NCBI GenBank assembly: GCA_902762795.1
Contig: CACWPM010000004.1
Coordinates: 1 to 64,000 of the forward strand
Length of the DNA: 64,000 nt
Origin: Fibrobacter succinogenes
Lineage (GTDB): Bacteria; Fibrobacterota; Fibrobacteria; Fibrobacterales; Fibrobacteraceae
Direction: 5' to 3'
In this document: one piece after another, positions 8,303-57,136 of the stretch
How the letters are laid out: every line of letters starts with the position of its first letter
Position numbering within the stretch: the stretch's first letter is position 1
Translations under genes and position numbers: made by a program
The notes under the pieces: model-generated
What the model saw: the letters and a program-made list of their open reading frames with translations, nothing else
Databases searched by the model: none
Told to the model about the DNA's origin: nothing

Positions 8303-10015
8303 ATGAGAAACTACAACTTTAAAATGTGGCCATCCATATTCTTGGCTGCATCGCTATTGTTTTTTGCATCATGCAGCGATTCTGCAACCACGGCAAACGA
8401 AGATTCCAACCAACCAGAATCAGAAAAGCCAAGCACATCAAAGCAAACTAAGGAAGCTTACTGGATTCTTTCGGGCCGCGTAATCACGCTCGACAGCAAT
8501 GCGGTACCGAACGCCAAAGTTTACCTTACCGACACCGATGATTCTACCGGCCGTGGCTATTACATTGATTCGGCAACGACCGACAAAAATGGATATTACT
8601 TATTCGATCGCGAGAAAGATAAGCATACATATATCCCTTACAAGTACCATCTACTCGTAAGAGCCAAATATGCAAAGGATTCTCTTTACGCCTTCTATGC
8701 CGACTATCCTAGATACCATAGAGTATACGAAGGAACAGAGGATTCACTTTATATTCCTATAAGAGTCCGAAAATATGTTACGGTCTTGATGAGCACGCAT
8801 AAGTTCGGTGATTTATACAGCAGCTACGGCGCCTCCGCAGAAAGTTATGCGGATTCCATTTGCTTTGGAGCAAACTTCCTTTGCCATACATTTTCAAAAA
8901 AAGATTTTGAAAACAATTATTTTGTCAGCATCGACAATTTTCCTGCCGGCGAAATATCTGACATGCGTATATGGTTCGGCAAATATCCAACAATAATATC
9001 GACATCTACGACCGTCGGGCACAGAGACACTGTTATATGGGGTCATGAAATTGGAGGCTATCCAGAAGACACGCTCCAAATAACACTCCCCAAAGAGGCC
9101 GCAAAAATGTTGGATTCGATGGGTTTAGAACCGTCGCTAGATTTTCTACTCGCCCCCATCCACACCAAAGATGAATTCGCAAGACGACTCAACGATTCCC
9201 AAGACTATTGCTTTGACAGACTGCTGGCGGGAAACGGTTACGAAGTCGAACTCATCCACGCAGAAAACGACGACGATGCAAACCGTTTTTGGGGAATGTT
9301 CAAAGAAATGAGTAAAAACATGCCCGTGTCTCGTTGGCTCGACAACACGTATGTTTCTAAAGACCGTTACGGTTTACCGAGAGGAGCGCACATCATCGCT
9401 TCTGTTGAGCCGGGATTTACCCTGCCCGATACGCTATACAAGCTGCACAAGTACACCCTCAGCAATTGCCCAATGGTATTCTATAAAAAGGCAAGTTCCA
9501 ACTCAAACCAAGTTGCATATTTGGACGACGACTGTGAAGGAACGACAGAATACGAATCGCGCGATACAGCATTCCTCGCCAGTTTCTGGATCGATACGGA
9601 CGAAGCTACCGCGGATTTTTCGAAGATCCTATCGGCCGGTAAAAAGGTCGGATTTGAAATGGCTCGCTGCGAAGATGATTCGAAATCCATCTGCTTCCAA
9701 GTCAATACGGGAATCGACTCATCAAGTAAAATCTATGGAACATCAAAAATCTTCGATGGCAAAAAGCACCATGTCGCATTTGTCCTCTACAACGAGCACC
9801 TTACAATCGCAATCGATGGCAATACCATCACGGACACCGTCCTTGAACTTTCGCAGGAGTTTTACGAAAACAACGTGAGCGGAATCAAGGTCGGAGACTT
9901 TGCGCTAACCGACTTCATCATACACCGTTTCAACAGTGACTTCCAGCGTCCGGACTATAGCGACTGGAGACGAATGCGCGTATGGCTTAAGGCGTTCTAC
10001 CTGCTGCAAAAGTAA
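8303..10015 (+). CDS. Lipoprotein with carboxypeptidase-regulatory-like and LamG-like domains
   Basis: The 570-residue protein has a signal peptide ending in the lipobox FFASC (about residue 25), then a Ser/Glu/Pro linker. Residues about 55-110 (ILSGRVITLDSNAVPNAKVYLTDTD region) fit a carboxypeptidase-regulatory-like beta sandwich. The C-terminal region from about residue 410 (FLASFWIDTD, HHVAFVLYNEHLTIAIDG) fits a Laminin-G/concanavalin-like sandwich. A surface binding role, perhaps to polysaccharide, is an inference from these folds. The start has a strong AGAGGAAG ribosome site. A 48-bp gap with an imperfect hairpin separates it from the barrel protein. Confidence 0.75.
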   Translation: MRNYNFKMWPSIFLAASLLFFASCSDSATTANEDSNQPESEKPSTSKQTKEAYWILSGRVITLDSNAVPNAKVYLTDTDDSTGRGYYIDSATTDKNGYYLFDREKDKHTYIPYKYHLLVRAKYAKDSLYAFYADYPRYHRVYEGTEDSLYIPIRVRKYVTVLMSTHKFGDLYSSYGASAESYADSICFGANFLCHTFSKKDFENNYFVSIDNFPAGEISDMRIWFGKYPTIISTSTTVGHRDTVIWGHEIGGYPEDTLQITLPKEAAKMLDSMGLEPSLDFLLAPIHTKDEFARRLNDSQDYCFDRLLAGNGYEVELIHAENDDDANRFWGMFKEMSKNMPVSRWLDNTYVSKDRYGLPRGAHIIASVEPGFTLPDTLYKLHKYTLSNCPMVFYKKASSNSNQVAYLDDDCEGTTEYESRDTAFLASFWIDTDEATADFSKILSAGKKVGFEMARCEDDSKSICFQVNTGIDSSSKIYGTSKIFDGKKHHVAFVLYNEHLTIAIDGNTITDTVLELSQEFYENNVSGIKVGDFALTDFIIHRFNSDFQRPDYSDWRRMRVWLKAFYLLQK

Positions 10016-42290: not shown

Positions 42291-43175
42291 TTATAACTTA
42301 AATCCTTTTGGTAAACCCAAAGTCTTTTCAAAATTTTCCGGACAACACATAATCAGCTCATTGAAACTAGCCGCCATTTCCAATTGCGCAACACGGTCCG
42401 TAGATAGCAAATCGTGCAAAATGAATATCAAAGCACCAACAGAATCATTTTCCAGCCGTAATCTTTGCATGGTAGGAGTCCGGGAGGGCCTTATCTTGAA
42501 ACGATATCCCCACAACCGGCCATGATGAGCGCAACGATTCCGAAGAATGACAAGACTCCGCACCCAAGACACCATATCATGCGGAGGCGCATTCAACCTT
42601 GACGCTACCATTTTAATGTGTGACTGATATTTCAACGCACCAAAAAGTTTCGACCATTTCCCGAATGAAAGAATTTCGGCAAGAATCCAGCATGGTGGGA
42701 CCTCGGATTCCGTATATGTCGCTTTAAAATGCTTCGCAGGAAGTTCATTGTTATCGATAGCACGTTCCAAAGCATCGATACACTCTTGTTTAAAATTGCT
42801 CAAATCTATAGAATTGACAAACAGGTGACCATCCATAAACCAAAACGGGTCTTGAAATTCAGTCACCATAAGGTAGTTCAAAATCGAGCGGAACATTATC
42901 TCGAAACGACCGAGATATTTCTGCAGGAACACACGCAGTTTTTCATCCCACAGATATAGGTTGTATATCCGATTGAACGTAGTACCAGGCAAAAATTTGT
43001 CTAAACGATTTCCTTTATCGTCAAATTTTTCAAAATATAGGCCATATCCGCAAAAGCGATAATAATTCACCTGAGACAGAATCAACATTGCCGAATCATT
43101 ATCTATTTCGACACCGCGACTTTTCAGCAAGGAAACTTGCTCTTCTAGGGTTGTCGGCTTCTTATTAAATTTCAC
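42291..43175 (-). CDS. Abi family (AbiD/AbiF-like, Abi_2) protein
   Basis: The 294-residue protein has the Abi_2 family pattern: KKPTTLEEQVSLLKSRGVEI, a LSQVNYYRFCGYGLYF segment, and RNRCAHHGRLW with R212 and H217 forming the R-x4-H motif of HEPN ribonucleases. Members act in abortive infection, probably as RNases. It sits between the terminator of the polysaccharide operon and rfbC, with which it may be co-transcribed. No antitoxin-like partner is visible. Confidence 0.85.
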   Translation of the reverse strand: MKFNKKPTTLEEQVSLLKSRGVEIDNDSAMLILSQVNYYRFCGYGLYFEKFDDKGNRLDKFLPGTTFNRIYNLYLWDEKLRVFLQKYLGRFEIMFRSILNYLMVTEFQDPFWFMDGHLFVNSIDLSNFKQECIDALERAIDNNELPAKHFKATYTESEVPPCWILAEILSFGKWSKLFGALKYQSHIKMVASRLNAPPHDMVSWVRSLVILRNRCAHHGRLWGYRFKIRPSRTPTMQRLRLENDSVGALIFILHDLLSTDRVAQLEMAASFNELIMCCPENFEKTLGLPKGFKL

Positions 43176-48768: not shown

Positions 48769-49074
48769 TTACAATTTTATAATATGGAACTCGATAAATA
48801 ACATCACCCAAATACTTGATTTCATTGTCGAAAAAAACTTTTTATCTTGCCTTGACAACACTAGATACGTTGACGAAATATATTTAATTTTTTCAAGAGC
48901 AATTGAAAAGCCTGTATCAATTATATTAGAAGTTCGACCAGAATATTTTTTTGCACAAATCATTAACGTTCCCAAAAAAGAGAAACGCTTTAAAATATCA
49001 TAAACATTTTCAATGCAATAAAAACGTTCATTTTCTTCTTTTATTAACTGATTTGTAACAATTAGCACATTCAT
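48769..49074 (-). pseudogene. Truncated glycosyltransferase N-terminus
   Basis: The 101 residues begin MNVLIVTNQLIKEENERFYC and continue with IENVYDILKRFSFLGTLMICAKKY, as in the N-terminal Rossmann half of GT4-like enzymes of 340-370 residues. The frame stops after FIEFHIIKL, and nothing further of a donor-binding half is seen before the next gene. Its ATG overlaps the stop codon of the opine-dehydrogenase-like gene as ATGA, so it is still coupled. It may be a recent deletion remnant or a short functional protein. Confidence 0.6.
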
Positions 49075-50090
49075 TTGCAAGTTTTCTCCATACATTTTTC
49101 CATACCCCATTCATAAACAACATCTATTTTCGGGGTGTCAACGCCATGTTTTTGAGCCAAATCTACAATGAAGCGCAACCCAAAGGGAAAATCTTCCGTG
49201 AAATAGCGGCTTTCAAAATCAGGAACCCAGCCATTTTCCACTTCTTTCATAGGAGCCTTGATTGTCTCAAAAGCTTTGATGGAACTTAACTTAGTTGCAA
49301 GGGATTTTGCATCTGTCGATTCGTAGTATTCTAAAAGCGAAGGAATCGACTTCTGGTTCATTGGAAGCTTTTCAAGCAAGCGCATGAATTCGGCATCCAT
49401 ATCTATTAACCACTGAGCGGCATCTTCCGTCCATTCCTTATAAAAAAGAATGCAATGATCATAAGGTTTTCCATCCCAATTATGCCACATACTGTAAAGA
49501 CGCCCCGTATGCAAAATCGGGTTACTATTTGTCAGACAAGCTTCATAAAAGCTCTGTAGCAAATTAACTGGCGTATTAAACAAATTCTCGATAAAAGTTC
49601 TAAATTCTTCGCAATTATCGATATTTTCCACAGCAATATTCAACGATGACTTATATCCCAACAGATTTGCTGTTTTACCATATTCCACCACGCGGGCAAT
49701 AAAAGGGACTCGCTGAAAACCGAATAGCTTATTTTTTTCTCCAAAAACTTCATGTGCAAAGAAGAAGAACCCTGTACTACTGACAATAGTGCCGACCACG
49801 GTCTTTTCAGAAAGATACGGTTTGATTTGCTTCAACGTCTGCTTTATCAAGAACCCCGGCAAGCAGAGTATAACCACATCCGCATCGGGAATAACTTCTT
49901 GCGGATTAGAGGAAATTCGACCCAAGCAGCCATTAAAGACTTTTCCATTCGCATCCTTTACTGAAATTACGTGACACCATTTTGCAGGATGATTTGTCAA
50001 CAAGTCTACAGAAATATTTTCCTGAGAAGAAAGAAAACCTATGCAAACATGCCCCAGAGCCCCTCCGCCACAAATCGTTATCTTCTTCAT
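49071..50090 (-). CDS. Octopine/nopaline dehydrogenase family protein
   Basis: The 339-residue protein has an N-terminal NAD(P)-binding ICGGGALGHVCIGF motif, VVILCLPGF, and a C-terminal helical opine dehydrogenase domain with NSNPILHTGRLYSMWHN, the His/Asn-containing active-site region. The family reductively joins an amino group to a 2-oxo acid. Its ATG overlaps the stop codon of the cytidylyltransferase/CobD-like fusion (ATGA), implying a shared pathway. Its substrate is probably an intermediate made by that fusion; this is inference. Confidence 0.85.
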   Translation of the reverse strand: MKKITICGGGALGHVCIGFLSSQENISVDLLTNHPAKWCHVISVKDANGKVFNGCLGRISSNPQEVIPDADVVILCLPGFLIKQTLKQIKPYLSEKTVVGTIVSSTGFFFFAHEVFGEKNKLFGFQRVPFIARVVEYGKTANLLGYKSSLNIAVENIDNCEEFRTFIENLFNTPVNLLQSFYEACLTNSNPILHTGRLYSMWHNWDGKPYDHCILFYKEWTEDAAQWLIDMDAEFMRLLEKLPMNQKSIPSLLEYYESTDAKSLATKLSSIKAFETIKAPMKEVENGWVPDFESRYFTEDFPFGLRFIVDLAQKHGVDTPKIDVVYEWGMEKCMEKTCK

Positions 50091-51901
50091 CTGTCTAGCT
50101 CCTTAAAGGCATTGAGAAGTTTCACGTTGTCTTCGTGGCTACGAACAGCTATCCGCATATACTGTTTGCCGTCGAAGCCCTTCTTATCGCTGCAATCGCG
50201 AGTTAAGATGTTGTACTTTTTGAGCATTGTGAGTACAAGTTCATTTGCATTTTTAGGCGGAAGAATTTCGCACAAGAAATAGTTTGCTTCCGAAGGCATC
50301 ACCCTCAGGAACTTAATCTTGCACAGTTCGTTTCCAAAGGCATCCCGTTCTTCGATGAACCGTTCACAGGCAACCTTGTAGTCCTTTTCATACTTAGTAT
50401 AGATCTGCATGAAGAATTCGGCGAAACTGTTGAGATTCCATATACTCACGCTCTTCTTCATTTTGGCAATAAGGTTCTTGTCTGCAGAACAGAGAATGCC
50501 CAAACGGATTCCGGGAACTCCGTAGCTCTTGGAAATGCTCTTCATCACCACAAGGTGTGGATAATCCTCTAAGATTCTGTCATCCAGAAGGGTATTTTCT
50601 TCATAGCCATGGCTGAAGTCAACAAAACTTTCGTCCACAATCAAACGACAGCCATTTTCTTCGCACCACTTCGCCAGAACGAGAATATCCTTTTTCGGGA
50701 TAAAGTTTCCAGACGGGTTGTCAGGATTGATCAGCAGCAGGTTATCAGCATGGTTATCGCCAAAAAAATTCATCAAGTCTTGCACAGAATAGCGATAATC
50801 GGCATTGTCCGGAACGAATGTGACAAGAGTTTCAGGATTGCGACGGTTCGGGTATTCCTCAAAAGTGGGGCGGGTCACGCCAAGCGTACCGGGGAGTTCC
50901 TCCATCAGGGCCTTAATCAGTTCGGCAGCACCGTTGCCGGGAATCACGTACTCTTCCTTCACCCCCCAGCATTTAGAAGCGAGAAGAGTATTGACCTTCA
51001 TGCCAGAGGGATATTCGCCAACGAGAGTCTTGAAGTTGGCGTTCATTTCATCAATGATGCGGGAATAACGAAAATACGGATTTACCAGATAACAATAATC
51101 TAGCATCTTCGGGAAACGCCAAAATCCGCCATAACGACCATAATACTTGCGAAGAACATCCTTCTCTTCCGCAAACAGAGCCTCGGCAATATCAAGGTCT
51201 TGCTTATCGTCAATCTCGTACCACTTCTCGTTGGTGATGGGCAAAGCCTTGAGGTCGCTCTTGCTCAAGAAGGATATAATGCGCAGTACGTTTTCGTAGT
51301 ATTCGTTGTTGCCGACGGCCTTGCAGTATGCATCCAGGAATGGCACATACTTGGTACGCGAGAATTCCTTGCTGAACTTATAGATGTTGACTGTCTTGTA
51401 ATAGTTGTTTACTTCTTCATAGCTAAATGCGGCCTTCGTCACAAAATTGACAATATTATTGTCCCTGTCAATCTTGACCATGGTTCCGTCCATCCAAGTT
51501 TCATACTTCGCGACCAGAGCCAAATTGGGGAACGGATTTTTCAGGAGAAGGTCAAACATTCCGTCATCAAAAATCAGGTCACTTTCGATTAAGAGCGTGT
51601 CGTCTTCCTGCAGCTGTTTTTTCGCAAGCGCAAGCGAATAAATATTATTCGTCTTGTCATAAATTGGATTGTTTACAAACTCTATCTGCAGTCCGCTACG
51701 TTCTGCACCAAGATAATCCATTAATTTTTGACCTTCATAACCAACAACGACTACAACACGGTTCAAGTTCAGCTTACTCAGTTGATTAAGCGTTCGGTCA
51801 ATCAAAGGAGTCCCATTCACCGGTACCATGCATTTCGTGTTATTCTTGGTGTATTCACCAAGTCGTTTTCCCATGCCTGCTGCCAAAATTATTGCTTGCA
51901 T
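50087..51901 (-). CDS. Fusion of LicC-like nucleotidyltransferase and CobD-like PLP enzyme
   Basis: The 604-residue protein has two parts. Residues 1-235 form an NTP-transferase domain (LAAGMGKRLGEYTKNNTKCM, LLIESDLIFDDG, WYEIDDKQDLDIA) like LicC, which makes CDP-choline. Residues about 255-604 form a fold type I PLP domain with GNGAAELIKAL, NPDNPSGNFIP, IVDESFVDF and SISKSYGVPGIRLG, where K458 binds PLP. The C-terminal ILTRDCSDKKG and MRIAVRS fit CobD-type phosphothreonine or phosphoserine decarboxylases better than HisC. It may decarboxylate a phospho-amino acid and CDP-activate the product (inferred). AAGGATC precedes the ATG. Confidence 0.85.
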   Translation of the reverse strand: MQAIILAAGMGKRLGEYTKNNTKCMVPVNGTPLIDRTLNQLSKLNLNRVVVVVGYEGQKLMDYLGAERSGLQIEFVNNPIYDKTNNIYSLALAKKQLQEDDTLLIESDLIFDDGMFDLLLKNPFPNLALVAKYETWMDGTMVKIDRDNNIVNFVTKAAFSYEEVNNYYKTVNIYKFSKEFSRTKYVPFLDAYCKAVGNNEYYENVLRIISFLSKSDLKALPITNEKWYEIDDKQDLDIAEALFAEEKDVLRKYYGRYGGFWRFPKMLDYCYLVNPYFRYSRIIDEMNANFKTLVGEYPSGMKVNTLLASKCWGVKEEYVIPGNGAAELIKALMEELPGTLGVTRPTFEEYPNRRNPETLVTFVPDNADYRYSVQDLMNFFGDNHADNLLLINPDNPSGNFIPKKDILVLAKWCEENGCRLIVDESFVDFSHGYEENTLLDDRILEDYPHLVVMKSISKSYGVPGIRLGILCSADKNLIAKMKKSVSIWNLNSFAEFFMQIYTKYEKDYKVACERFIEERDAFGNELCKIKFLRVMPSEANYFLCEILPPKNANELVLTMLKKYNILTRDCSDKKGFDGKQYMRIAVRSHEDNVKLLNAFKELDR

Positions 51902-51916
51902 AAAGATCCTTAAATA

Positions 51917-52669
51917 TTAATGCAGATTGTCAAAATGAGGTGATACTCGTTTTTCAATGGGAGGCAACTGCATATAGTCGCCATACTCTTTTTTTAAATA
52001 CCAATCAAAATCTTTAATTATCGGAAACATAGCATCTTCAAATTTATGATATTGCAAATTCTCGAAAAAATCCGCAGGTTTAAACCAATACACATTATGA
52101 AGAATGGAACAAGAATAATAATCAAAATCGTTCGACAGTTTGTAATACTTAGCAAATTTATTTTCCATTATACGACAAATTTTCACAGTCAAACTACACG
52201 GTATGGCTTTTAAAAATATTTTTACTATTTTTTCAACAAAAGAACCTCTTTCCAAAGGAACATTTCGTCGAGACATTAAAACCAAGATTATTCCGTATAA
52301 CTGTTGAATTTTCCGAGCAATTTTATGACGAGGACATTTATCTAACGGAAAAACATCTACAAAAAAAGGCGTTTCTGAATTACGGTTCTGCACCCGTTTA
52401 ACTTTCGTAAAGGTATTTGTGCAATTTGGATTTGTTTGCAAATTATCCAAATAGTATTGTTCATAATTCCAGGTATTCAAAAACCGATTATAATCATCAC
52501 GAGGCATATAGATATCAAGGTCATCATCCCATGGAATAAATCCATTATGCCTAATAGCTCCTAGCAATGTCCCAAAGGCTAAAGAATATTTAATATGATT
52601 CTTTTGACAATGAGTGTCAATATCCTTCAGAATCTGTAAAACAGATAATTGAACTTCACGTAGCGTCAT
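51917..52669 (-). CDS. LicD-family phosphotransferase
   Basis: The 250-residue protein starts with a helical region followed by FGTLLGAIRHNGFIPWDDD and DIYMPRDDY (33-60), the LicD signature with clustered Asp residues for metal. LicD proteins transfer phosphocholine or similar groups from CDP carriers to glycans. Together with the LicC-like domain next door this suggests that the polysaccharide carries a phosphodiester decoration. It overlaps the GT4 stop codon by 14 bases and has AGGA upstream. Confidence 0.9.
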   Translation of the reverse strand: MTLREVQLSVLQILKDIDTHCQKNHIKYSLAFGTLLGAIRHNGFIPWDDDLDIYMPRDDYNRFLNTWNYEQYYLDNLQTNPNCTNTFTKVKRVQNRNSETPFFVDVFPLDKCPRHKIARKIQQLYGIILVLMSRRNVPLERGSFVEKIVKIFLKAIPCSLTVKICRIMENKFAKYYKLSNDFDYYSCSILHNVYWFKPADFFENLQYHKFEDAMFPIIKDFDWYLKKEYGDYMQLPPIEKRVSPHFDNLH

Positions 52670-53813
52670 TCTGACAATTCCTGTAAATTTTTTTCATTAT
52701 GCCACAGATTTTTTCGACATCAAAATTTTTCATCACTTCTTGATTGACTACACTCATTTCATCAGCATTCCCTGATACAATCTTTTTCATTCCTTCGGCA
52801 AAGCCATCGATATCATGGCTATCATATAAATATCCACCCTTACCATTTTCAATTAAGTCTATATTGCCTCTAATTCTGCTGCAAACAACAGGTAATCCAG
52901 CCGCCATCGCTTCCATCAAAGCGACTGGCAGGCCCTCTTGCAAACTCGGAAATGCAAAAGCGTCAACTGTATGCAGGATTTCTTTGACATCTTTACGATA
53001 GCCGGCAAAAACAACTCTATTTTGTAAACCAAGTTCTGCAACAAGGTTCTTTAGACGTTCCTCTTCTTCACCAAAGCCAACAATCAAGTATTTAACTTTC
53101 TCATTAATAATTTTAGCAAGAGCCCTGATTATAACTTCATGATTTTTTCTTATCGAAATTTGCCCGACAGACATAAAAACGAAATCGCCATCGGAAAAAC
53201 CGAAACTTGAACGCATTTGCGTTCTATCTACTACAGTGTTCTTGATTTCTTCGGTATGCACGCCTATACCGGGAACGTATTCAACTTGCTTAGCATACAT
53301 CTTTTGCGCATTACGAAAATCTTCTTGATTAATGGTTATCAAGACATCCGTATACTTAGAGCACAATTTTTCAATGGGATAATAAACCACCCATGCTATT
53401 TTCGATGAGCCCTTGAAAAAATGAAAACCATGCGCAGTGTAAATTACTTTCGTCCCTGTTTTTCGAGCTTTACGGCACGCAAGTCTGCAAATGACACCGC
53501 CAATTGGAGAATGACAATGGACAATTTGGTACTTATTTTCTTCTACAAGGTGTTTTACCAACTTGTACGATTTGACAATATTCCCGATTTTGCTTATAGA
53601 ACGAGGAATCGGGATTTGAAAAGTACCGATATTCAGCTTCTTGAGTTCTTCACGGTATTCGTTAACGCGTTCCTGTGAAGTAATCGAGCCTTCTTCAAAA
53701 TTTGTTGCTACATCAACAGCGTATCCGAGCGATTGCAAGATACGGATGTTGTCTGCATTGAACAGATCTATCATCGAAGCAACAGAAGCTAGCTGTAAGG
53801 CTCTTTTTTGCAT
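52656..53813 (-). CDS. Family 4 glycosyltransferase (EpsD-like)
   Basis: The GT-B enzyme has about 385 residues. It has an N-terminal fold with ASMIDLFNADNIRILQSLGY, then HCHSPIGGVICRLAC and VIYTAHGFHFFKG. The donor-binding half has FVFMSVGQISIRKNHEVIIRA and FPSLQEGLPVALMEAMAAGL (E-x7-E). ATG 53813 is preceded by GGTGGAG and overlaps the stop codon of the nuclease-like gene as TGATG. It transfers a sugar in repeat-unit assembly; the donor is unknown. Confidence 0.9.
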   Translation of the reverse strand: MQKRALQLASVASMIDLFNADNIRILQSLGYAVDVATNFEEGSITSQERVNEYREELKKLNIGTFQIPIPRSISKIGNIVKSYKLVKHLVEENKYQIVHCHSPIGGVICRLACRKARKTGTKVIYTAHGFHFFKGSSKIAWVVYYPIEKLCSKYTDVLITINQEDFRNAQKMYAKQVEYVPGIGVHTEEIKNTVVDRTQMRSSFGFSDGDFVFMSVGQISIRKNHEVIIRALAKIINEKVKYLIVGFGEEEERLKNLVAELGLQNRVVFAGYRKDVKEILHTVDAFAFPSLQEGLPVALMEAMAAGLPVVCSRIRGNIDLIENGKGGYLYDSHDIDGFAEGMKKIVSGNADEMSVVNQEVMKNFDVEKICGIMKKIYRNCQNDAT

Positions 53814-54310
53814 CACTCCACCTCGATTGTATTCTGATACAAAAGTCTAAATCCGAACTTCGAACGGAATTCGTTCATCTCTACTTTATGCGATACCTGA
53901 AAATTCGGGTGCCTATGGTCCGCAATATACGCTTTGCGCGTTCCAAACACTTTGGGATCGTGATTGGCAACAAATTCATTAATTGTAGAAGCTAGTTGTT
54001 CCTTCGCATGTTTAAAATCGCTTTTCTTGCGATTTTTTATTTCAACAAATGCCAAATAGGAATTGTCCATCTTATGGAGCAAGCCTTCACTTAGGCTTAT
54101 CTGATTCCCATTTTTCTTTATAACAATATTCCTATCTATAGGGATAAAGTGCAACATGTGTGCAGAAGGATTTTTCACAATAGCATCCCACGGATCATCC
54201 GCATGATCCGTAGTTGTCCTGGCATATGGTTCGGCCTCGCGATCAATAATCCCGAAATGAACGTCATTGCGGGCAGGTTCCCTATTATACTTTGCTTCAA
54301 AGAAATCCAT
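53813..54310 (-). CDS. Probable PD-(D/E)XK-like partner of the AAA ATPase
   Basis: The 165-residue protein is not recognised as a named family. D82, E90 and K92 in KMDNSYLAFVEIKNRK, with Q105 in the next helix (HAKEQLAST), fit the D-x(n)-E-x-K core of PD-(D/E)XK nucleases. The ATG overlaps the ATPase stop codon by one base (TAATG), so the two form a unit. Such ATPase/nuclease pairs are common among defence systems. It is embedded within a polysaccharide operon, which is odd. Nuclease activity is inferred. Confidence 0.6.
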   Translation of the reverse strand: MDFFEAKYNREPARNDVHFGIIDREAEPYARTTTDHADDPWDAIVKNPSAHMLHFIPIDRNIVIKKNGNQISLSEGLLHKMDNSYLAFVEIKNRKKSDFKHAKEQLASTINEFVANHDPKVFGTRKAYIADHRHPNFQVSHKVEMNEFRSKFGFRLLYQNTIEVE

Positions 54311-55539
54311 TATCCCTCAACCTCGTCCTGGATTTCCAGCAAAGCATCAAAAAGGTCATTCGTTTCGCTTAACGCAGAATTCAAGAAATTCCTGTCGCTG
54401 GGGATTCCGTCGTAATTGTCTAGCAACCGAATTTCTCCTTCAGGCGAAATTTCGTATATGGCAACATCCTTCGGACGCACGGAGCCACTGCGAGGTACTA
54501 TGGAATCCATTCGATCCAGCAAAGCCTGCGATTTTGCAGATTGCTTTATTTCTGCCTTGAGCATACCCGCCTTGACGGCAAGAGTCAGGTAATTCAGCAT
54601 GTAAGGGCTATGGGTCGTAAAGACCAACTGGTTACCGGCAAGTTGGTTATTGACTTTCAGAAGTTCATTCAGCACAACCCGCTGTGTCTCGGGATAAAGG
54701 TTCTGTTCGGGTTCCTCGACAATATTCACCAAACGTCCATTGATGAAGTAGCGCGCCTCCACCTGCTTAATCAATGTTGTCCGCAAGAAATTGGACAAGG
54801 AGCGATCCTTCAAAATCTCCGCCACCATTTTTTCAGTCTTTTGTCGCTCAGCCCCGCTTGCAGCGTCCAACCCCGTTTTCTTATTTTCTTTAATCTTGTT
54901 AAGCAAATACCGCGTCACAACGACCATGGGAACCATAGACTGGAAACCGCTCGCCGCCTCGGTTATCTTTATTTTGAATTCAGAACCGTTCAGCCAAACA
55001 GAATCTGTTAACGGGTCATAAGTAACTTTGTAACCATTTAAGGGAAGCGCTATAGGTTCATTTGCATTGCGGAGCGCATTTGTATATTCATCAAAAAATA
55101 CAGAAAGAGAACCGAACAAATTTCGAATATCTTTCGCATCTTTCAAGGCAGTCATGAAATTACGTTCCGAAGGGATATACATGACCTGCGGGCGAACGAA
55201 ACTACGCGACTTTATTTCTTTTACACTTAAATTGCCCTTTACATAGGTAAAAGCAAATTTTGTTCCCTTAAAATAAAGGAAGGTGTCGGTTTTGAAATAG
55301 TTCTGTATATTATGGAACGCACAATACTTTTCGCGGAAATTTTTGGCTGTCAGTTCCTTGACATCGAAGTCCCCGCGCACCAAAGCCTTTTCGAGCCACA
55401 GAAAAGTCGAAAGCAGCTTAGCAATGGAACTTTTGCCAGACCCTTGCATACCACAAAAAACGGTGACCTTGTTTACTTTCAAGGGCAATCCGTTCTTGTT
55501 GGCGATAGGGCCAAAATTCTGTATCAAAAGTTCTTGCAT
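54310..55539 (-). CDS. AAA/ABC-type ATPase of the OLD/SMC-like group
   Basis: The 409-residue ATPase has Walker A GMQGSGKS (30-37), an ABC-like signature EAASGFQSMVPM, Walker B NIVEEPEQNLYPETQ and the switch His in FTTHSPYMLNY. The central part (about 60-190) is an insert of unknown fold. This layout matches AAA_21-type ATPases found beside nuclease-like partners. No TOPRIM domain is present in this chain. It lies 20 bases after the epimerase and is coupled to the gene at 53813. Role unknown. Confidence 0.82.
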   Translation of the reverse strand: MQELLIQNFGPIANKNGLPLKVNKVTVFCGMQGSGKSSIAKLLSTFLWLEKALVRGDFDVKELTAKNFREKYCAFHNIQNYFKTDTFLYFKGTKFAFTYVKGNLSVKEIKSRSFVRPQVMYIPSERNFMTALKDAKDIRNLFGSLSVFFDEYTNALRNANEPIALPLNGYKVTYDPLTDSVWLNGSEFKIKITEAASGFQSMVPMVVVTRYLLNKIKENKKTGLDAASGAERQKTEKMVAEILKDRSLSNFLRTTLIKQVEARYFINGRLVNIVEEPEQNLYPETQRVVLNELLKVNNQLAGNQLVFTTHSPYMLNYLTLAVKAGMLKAEIKQSAKSQALLDRMDSIVPRSGSVRPKDVAIYEISPEGEIRLLDNYDGIPSDRNFLNSALSETNDLFDALLEIQDEVEG

Positions 55540-55559
55540 ACGCTAAATATATATAAAAC

Positions 55560-56441
55560 CTATCCGTTCTCCGTCCTTTCGATAGCTTCTTGCAGGGTGA
55601 ATTTCTGGTAGGGTTCCTTGTACTCGCTCATGGCTTGGTCGTAAGCGAGGTTACCGAAGGCCTTGTTCACGAGGCCGGTGGCGTGGCTCATGAGCTTTAG
55701 CGCCCAGCCGAATCCAGGGATAAGCACGCAGCGCTTGTTGTGGGCCTTGGCGATGAGCGAGATGACCTCGCTGGTGTTGCTGTACTGCGGGTTCTGCGGC
55801 CAGAAGGTGCCGTGCTCTCCGTTTTCTATCATGAGGCGCACGAATTCCACGAGGTTCCCGATGTAAAGCATGCTGCGCCTGTTCTCGACTTTCGGGAATA
55901 CCGGGAGTTTTTGCGCGAGCTTGCTCAAGAGCGGGTAGTTTCCTTTGCTGCCCTTGCCAAATATCATGGGCGGACGGAGGATGACAACCTTGAAAGTGTC
56001 GCAATCTAGCGGGCGGATGCCGTTTTCGGCCTGCACCTTGCTGTCGCCGTAGCAGTTGGCGGGGTTCACGGGGGTGTCGCGGGTAATCAGTTTCTCTTTA
56101 CCTATGGGGGCGCTGTCGCCATACACAATGGCACTGCTCATGAATATGAACTGCTTGACGCCTGCGTCTTTGGCCTTCTTCGCGCATTCCACGGTGAGGT
56201 CGGTGTTGACGGCGTAATAGAGTTTCGCACGTTCGTCGCTGATTTTACCGTTATCGCTGTGGGCAATTCCTGCCACGTGATAGACCGCATCGTAGCCGCT
56301 AAAGTCATAAGAACGCCAGGCATCGCCAATCATGTCGAGCGTATCGACCTGGTACTTGCCCGCGAATTCGGATTGAGCGAGGTAGTTCGCAAAGGATGTG
56401 CCGATGTAGCTGTTCGCGCCGGTGATTAAAATCTTTATCAC
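55560..56441 (-). CDS. NAD-dependent nucleotide-sugar epimerase/dehydratase
   Basis: The short-chain dehydrogenase has about 293 residues and starts [20 protein letters not shown]. It contains VYHVAGIAHSD, FMSSAIVYGD, the catalytic YGDSK (Tyr-x3-Lys) and ILRPPMIFGKG. It resembles the WbpV/GalE-like enzymes placed next to initiating transferases, perhaps acting on a UDP-HexNAc. The GTG at 56441 has GGGAGG upstream and overlaps the transferase stop codon; the ribosome site lies within repeat DNA. Confidence 0.88.
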   Translation of the reverse strand: MIKILITGANSYIGTSFANYLAQSEFAGKYQVDTLDMIGDAWRSYDFSGYDAVYHVAGIAHSDNGKISDERAKLYYAVNTDLTVECAKKAKDAGVKQFIFMSSAIVYGDSAPIGKEKLITRDTPVNPANCYGDSKVQAENGIRPLDCDTFKVVILRPPMIFGKGSKGNYPLLSKLAQKLPVFPKVENRRSMLYIGNLVEFVRLMIENGEHGTFWPQNPQYSNTSEVISLIAKAHNKRCVLIPGFGWALKLMSHATGLVNKAFGNLAYDQAMSEYKEPYQKFTLQEAIERTENG

Positions 56442-57136
56442 GAAACCTCCCTGGATCCTTCGGCGCACTTCGCTTGCTCAGGATGGCACTGCGTGGCCTG
56501 TTCGGGATGAGTTTCAGCTTCATGTTTGTGAATTTCGCCGGTGCCACCTTCGACCACGCCATCGCTCTTGACAACGCTCAAGATCGTCCCGAAGAAGCAC
56601 TTGCAATCGAAAAGGAAACTCTGACGCTTTACGTATTCGCCATCGAGGGCAGCCTTCACAGGGATTTCAAGTTCGTCGCGACCGTTAATCTGCGCCCAGC
56701 CGGTAAGTCCGACCGGGACATCGTTCGCACCATACTTGTCGCGCTCTGCAATCAGATCGTACTGGTTCCACAGAGCCGGACGCGGGCCGATGATGCTCAT
56801 GGTTCCCTCGAAAATGTTGAACATCTGCGGGAGTTCGTCAAGGCTCGTCTTGCGGAGGAAACCGCCAACTTTCGTTATCCACTTTTTAGGGTCGGAAAGT
56901 TCATGCGTCGGGGCGTCCTTCGGTGTGTCGGTGCGCATGGTGCGGAACTTGTAAATGTTAAAGTACGTCTTGTGGAGGCCAACGCGTTTCTGCTTGAAGA
57001 GCACGGGGCCCTTGCTATCGAGCTTGATTGCGATAGCGATGACAAGCATCGGGAGAGCAAGCACCACGATGCCTAAACCGGAGAGAACGATGTCCAAAAA
57101 ACGTTTGAAGAAAAGCGTATAGGGAGTCTTATGCAT
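56438..57136 (-). CDS. Initiating undecaprenyl-phosphate sugar transferase (PglC/WcaJ C-terminal type)
   Basis: The protein has about 232 residues: one N-terminal membrane helix ([20 protein letters not shown]) and the catalytic domain with [48 protein letters not shown] and [13 protein letters not shown]. It starts repeat-unit synthesis by moving a sugar-1-phosphate to the lipid carrier. The last 30 residues ([23 protein letters not shown]) are a translated GGATCC-type repeat, not family sequence. ATG 57136 with GGAGAGGG upstream is chosen. Confidence 0.92.
56442..56505. repeat. GGATCC/GGATGAC-type repeat in the transferase 3' end
   Basis: CTGGATCCTTCGGCGCAC, TTCGCTTGCTCAGGATGG and a second CGGGATGAG half lie in frame and encode the HPEQ-type tail of the sugar transferase. 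The repeat end also provides the ribosome site for the epimerase. Confidence 0.65.

Follow-up and report, generated by a model that had tools for sequence, protein, structure and literature searches.

The window, i.e. the whole stretch of 64,000 nucleotides of Fibrobacter succinogenes DNA that was analysed (contig CACWPM010000004.1), encodes on its minus strand, in this order, a PglD-like acetyltransferase, a sugar transferase, an epimerase, gene A, gene B, a GT4 glycosyltransferase, LicD and more glycan genes. The nearest named relative carrying the A/B pair is Fibrobacter succinogenes RUG14562. The features of the locus are as follows:

55560-56468, minus strand: epimerase gene, upstream flank outside the module (Pfam Epimerase, 1.5e-23; cassette-free orthologues in other Fibrobacter)
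55545-55551, minus strand: TATATTT element directly before gene A, a possible -10 element (all four Fibrobacter copies)
54310-55539, minus strand: gene A, OLD/AAA_15-type ABC ATPase, PDC-M29A, 409 aa (PADLOC, Pfam, 30-member alignment)
55426-55452, minus strand: Walker A of gene A, GMQGSGKSS, residues 30-38, with invariant G30, Q32, G35, K36 and S37 (alignment)
54691-54726, minus strand: Walker B region of gene A, NIVEEPEQNLYP, residues 272-283, with invariant E275 and E276 (alignment)
53813-54310, minus strand: gene B, predicted small PD-(D/E)XK-like nuclease, PDC-M29B, 165 aa (PADLOC, conserved E-x-K and Q, hhalign)
54035-54088, minus strand: predicted active-site stretch of gene B, running from E75, where most relatives have D, to E90-x-K92 (alignment)
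53811-53816, minus strand: 3' junction of the cassette, GTGATG, where the stop of B and the start of the GT4 gene overlap (the TRATG pattern recurs at the empty site of genome G037 and after B in genome G088)
52656-53816, minus strand: GT4 gene, downstream flank outside the module (Pfam Glycos_transf_1, 1.2e-39)

Gene A lies 20 bp behind the epimerase gene and has one base in common with gene B (TAATG), which begins within the stop codon of A. Gene B ends in TGATG and overlaps the GT4 gene by 4 bases if the latter starts at GTG, or by 1 base if it starts at ATG. Both overlaps, of A with B and of B with the GT4 gene, had been claimed in the original prediction and are seen in the reading frames.

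Gene A matches the PADLOC family PDC-M29A (9e-146, residues 1-406 of 409) and the Pfam families AAA_15 (1.7e-17) and AAA_21 (5.3e-10), so that its original reading as an OLD/SMC-type ATPase is borne out by both collections in the form of an OLD/AAA_15-type ABC ATPase. Other, weaker PADLOC matches are AriA (2.5e-19), PD-T4-4_A (2.2e-10), PtuA (1e-9) and GajA (1.2e-8). The invariance of its Walker residues was judged on a 30-member alignment. No Toprim domain was matched by Pfam at E<=1, and gene A is therefore not a complete OLD nuclease. An AlphaFold model of gene A built on four sequences had a mean pLDDT of 50.

Gene B matches a single PADLOC family, PDC-M29B (2.1e-38, residues 1-164 of 165). 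Pfam yielded nothing of note on gene B itself, with no match to a Toprim domain, and no HNH or PtuB model was matched in Pfam or PADLOC. In the alignment of 30 sequences, E90 and K92 are invariant, D59, C74 and Q105 are near-invariant, and a D or E stands right after C74; [D/E]75, E90, K92 and Q105 thus form the residue pattern of a PD-(D/E)XK nuclease, with E75 in the window. The window copy has S74-E75 where its closest relative, 79% identical, has C-D; an E at position 75 also occurs in three other relatives, which retain C74. Of the D-x7-E-x-K core proposed originally, the E-x-K part (E90, K92) holds, and D82 is not conserved in the 30-member alignment and was rejected as a catalytic residue. 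Relatives of gene B have weak matches to NERD, SduA_C, HSDR_N, Endonuc_Holl and NucS_C, and in hhalign comparisons the conserved D and E-x-K columns fall on their counterparts in SduA_C (P 4e-4) and NERD (P 1e-3). An AlphaFold model of gene B built on four sequences fell short of a confident nuclease fold, with a mean pLDDT of 43 and a plausible strand-strand-helix-strand order, and Foldseek with this low-confidence model returned no match at E<=0.001. Judged by sequence, gene B is a PD-(D/E)XK-like nuclease.

The searches of both proteins against defence collections, suggested in the original prediction, thus lead to one family: by its profile matches the A/B pair is another member of PDC-M29, an already catalogued defence candidate. 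Indeed, both proteins match over their full length, and the gene order and style of overlap are the same; the window copy has S-E where B usually reads C-D and differs in nothing essential. PDC entries are defence candidates by 'guilt by embedding', and experiments are missing for most of them (PMC12988326); in the literature searched, no mention of PDC-M29 and no phage assay was found.

Several named systems resemble the pair in part. In brief: (i) Septu (PtuA/PtuB) likewise combines an ATPase with a small nuclease, and gene A has weak PtuA similarity, but PtuB is an HNH nuclease whereas gene B has E-x-K and no HNH; membership was rejected on this nuclease type, and a Septu kinship is not supported, the Septu scores of A being weak as well; (ii) PD-T4-4 has a weakly similar ATPase and a nuclease partner, but gene B has no PD-T4-4_B match in PADLOC and the pair was not assigned to it; (iii) OLD nucleases, Gabija GajA and PARIS AriA share a related ATPase domain, but no Toprim domain was matched in A or B, and PDC-M29 keeps its predicted nuclease, of PD-(D/E)XK-like type, in a protein of its own. 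Membership among the OLD nucleases was rejected on the absent C-terminal Toprim, and membership in PARIS on the lack of an AriB Toprim partner, gene B matching PDC-M29B alone.

Gene B is patchily distributed, being present in 28 of 393 Bacteroidales genomes, 7 of 167 genomes of the window's phylum and 4 of 80 of its genus. Of the B genes, 30 have flanking sequence (those cut by a contig end were left out), and each of these has a gene A beside it, most pairs overlapping by 1-23 bp. Chance is excluded by this constant adjacency and by the relatives that both proteins have in Bacteroidales and other Fibrobacter. Furthermore, comparison of the window with locus L002 gave dN/dS values of 0.075 (A) and 0.17 (B), a sign of purifying selection on both genes, which argues that the window copy has been kept.

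The genomic contexts of PDC-M29 are varied. Its neighbours include purA and a DEAD helicase (L052), PNPase and rpe (L057), pheT and a GT2 gene (L077), Obg (L081), RNase HII and a GT4 gene (L067) and a type I HsdM (L074). In another Fibrobacter locus (L003, gene A 74% identical), a SAVED effector gene and a true PtuA/PtuB Septu pair (1e-111 and 1e-72, PADLOC) are followed by the PDC-M29 pair and then by a Panacea gene; a Panacea gene also accompanies PDC-M29 in L004. On a Persicobacter plasmid the pair has GmrSD on one side and, at a distance of 4 bp, a type III methyltransferase gene on the other. The original view of a defence-type ATPase/nuclease cassette is upheld by the PDC-M29 matches of both genes together with such relatives in defence islands (the CBASS/Septu island of L003, the Persicobacter plasmid and L074). 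The same contexts answer whether the pair occurs outside polysaccharide loci: it is found in many non-glycan operons, and the case that would have spoken against a defence cassette, a pair always found in polysaccharide loci, is false (purA, PNPase, GmrSD and other contexts). A role of the pair in glycan synthesis or its regulation, to which its position inside the operon and the overlapping reading frames would point, is very improbable, since relatives adjoin purA, PNPase, pheT, Obg, GmrSD and others and orthologous glycan operons lack the pair; as the main reading it was ruled out by these contexts and empty sites.

Comparison within Fibrobacter revealed how the pair came to its place. In G037 the epimerase (91%) is directly followed, with no cassette, by the glycosyltransferase that in G088 comes after B, whereas in G088 genes A and B sit between that epimerase and glycosyltransferase; DNA homology between the two genomes ends at the end of the epimerase gene and resumes at the start of the glycosyltransferase gene. 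The junctions read GAGAAGTGATGCAG at the empty site (G037), GAGAAGTAA...GAGTAATGCAAAAG in G088 and GAGTGATGCAAAAAAG after B in the window. The window and G088 are alike from the sugar transferase through the end of B and different beyond. In four further genomes (G086, G062, G078 and G023) a glycosyltransferase-like gene, named by eye from its sequence, directly follows the epimerase. Because the empty-site genome G037 exists, the pair is an insertion, and since it is a clean insertion between two sugar genes, the sugar operon seems to be where the pair has landed rather than what it works for. Sequence common to L003 and L053 starts about 18 bp before A, and the mobile unit is therefore bounded on that side. 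Each of the four Fibrobacter copies has the TATATTT before A within this boundary, in differing surroundings (its occurrence was checked on the Fibrobacter loci examined), and the motif could be gene A's own promoter element; a sigma-70 promoter scan gave no match above chance.

No direct or inverted repeats as marks of transposition were found around the window cassette. Direct repeats flank two other Fibrobacter copies: a GC-rich 37-nt repeat in L003 (9235-9271 and 11744-11780) and a 76-nt repeat in L053 (3343-3418 and 5306-5381). The L053 repeat includes TTGACA-17-TATATT, and TATATT may accordingly act as a -10 element in the genus.

A designed link with the glycan locus, as originally proposed, is not supported, given the many non-glycan operons, the empty-site genome and the following counts of neighbouring glycosyltransferases. 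As a null for glycosyltransferase proximity, 203 PF00534/PF00535 genes were counted in 29.7 Mb of six genomes, which puts the probability that a random site has such a gene within 2.5 kb at 3.4% at most. With the window left out, 3 of 29 cassettes have a glycosyltransferase within this distance against 1.0 expected (P 0.075), an enrichment that is not significant; with the window included the figures are 4 of 30 and P 0.018. As this null is a rough one and part of the sorting of cassettes was done by eye, a mild preference for glycan loci is possible. Given the varied non-glycan contexts and the empty-site Fibrobacter genome, the glycan link of the pair looks incidental.

The proposal that came with the original prediction was one of layered defence, in which the glycan locus is co-selected with an intracellular defence and glycan change and internal immunity travel jointly. 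It would agree with an AbiD gene in the same glycan cluster, between the flippase and rmlC, with a HepT-like gene between the sugar transferase and the epimerase of G088, and with the position of the cassette at the boundary between the conserved head of the operon and its variable part. However, a relative of the AbiD gene in G061 (80%) has a non-glycan context, and PDC-M29 does not significantly favour glycan loci when the window is excluded; this proposal is thus quite unlikely. A related idea, which we also regard as unlikely, is that the junction of conserved head and variable part in Fibrobacter glycan operons is a landing site for scarless, translationally coupled small defence cassettes, so that glycan recombination would also reshuffle intracellular immunity.

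The closest experimentally proven parallel is WonAB of the Vibrio cholerae WASA-1 prophage, a two-gene operon that encodes first an OLD-type ABC ATPase and then a small PD-(D/E)xK nuclease (PMC12137116). It acts by abortive infection and requires both catalytic sites; it comes into play once phage replication has begun, translation is halted, and the toxicity of WonB requires WonA (PMC12137116). PDC-M29 has the same predicted two-gene make-up, the two systems being likened by description and found in different hosts. From this shared make-up the same logic would follow, with the ATPase as sensor and licence and the nuclease as effector, and the most likely function of PDC-M29 is accordingly worded as defence in which an ATPase sensor licenses an abortive nuclease, as in WonAB.

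The pair is thus probably an intracellular two-gene anti-phage module, with an OLD-type ABC ATPase as sensor and a PD-(D/E)XK-like nuclease as effector, inserted as a compact cassette at the epimerase/glycosyltransferase junction. In favour of this module count the PDC-M29 matches, the gene pairing, the conserved catalytic residues, the alignment of B with SduA_C and NERD, the defence-island contexts, the patchy distribution, the empty site, purifying selection, the loss of B beside an intact A and the parallel with WonAB; against it count the S-E in place of C-D in the window's B and the model of B, with its low pLDDT and lack of a significant Foldseek match. In the proposed mechanism, the cassette, with one edge about 18 bp before A and the other at B's stop codon, would have been inserted at a stop/start junction. 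A would dimerise with ATP and bind B, and a phage-induced change would then license the nuclease of B, which may cleave RNA of the translation machinery if PDC-M29 is WonAB-like and otherwise DNA; infection would be stopped, probably at the cell's expense.

Alternatively, the pair could be a toxin-antitoxin module in which B is a free toxin and A a mere neutraliser, as two overlapping genes including a small nuclease, the Panacea antitoxin genes adjoining some PDC-M29 copies and the tolerated loss of B with A kept (G063) might suggest. In WonAB, of the same make-up, simple neutralisation is excluded because WonB is harmful only with WonA (PMC12137116), and conserved ATPase motifs such as those of A are unusual for an antitoxin, which makes this alternative unlikely. 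The tolerated loss of B also fits an effector that is dispensable to A, as the anti-phage module would have it. In G063 (L053, 4957-5460), B is short of about 208 bp, out of frame, the E-x-K included, and A is intact.

Viral contigs searched with the gene A alignments yielded distant ATPases only. The Microcystis phage Mic1 (MN013189; L143, 3501-4739) encodes an orphan PDC-M29A (1.8e-187) with no B alongside, adjoining an RNA ligase gene; it is possibly a counter-defence decoy. An odd operon becomes a testable case: for the catalogued candidate PDC-M29 there are a defined minimal cassette, a predicted active site placed on the sequence, a genome with the site empty, a copy that has naturally lost B and a phage in which the ATPase occurs alone. 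If PDC-M29 works like WonAB, the ATPase-sensor/nuclease kind of defence would also include systems of Fibrobacter and Bacteroidales, and the orphan of Mic1 might act as such a decoy.

Other genes of the glycan operons were also recorded. The AbiD/Abi_2 gene between the flippase and rmlC is encoded at 42291-43175 of the window (minus strand), at the opposite end of the glycan cluster from the A/B pair, and matches PADLOC AbiD (4.9e-55) and Pfam Abi_2 (1.5e-43). In the orthologous glycan operon of L002, a HepT-like/NTase_sub_bind gene (8690-9091) is inserted between the sugar transferase and the epimerase, and no partner nucleotidyltransferase was noted for it. Finally, LicD is followed in the window by genes for a nucleotidyltransferase-aminotransferase fusion and an octopine-dehydrogenase-like protein (49071-51901, minus strand), an unusual set that may serve the decoration of the glycan with an opine-like group.
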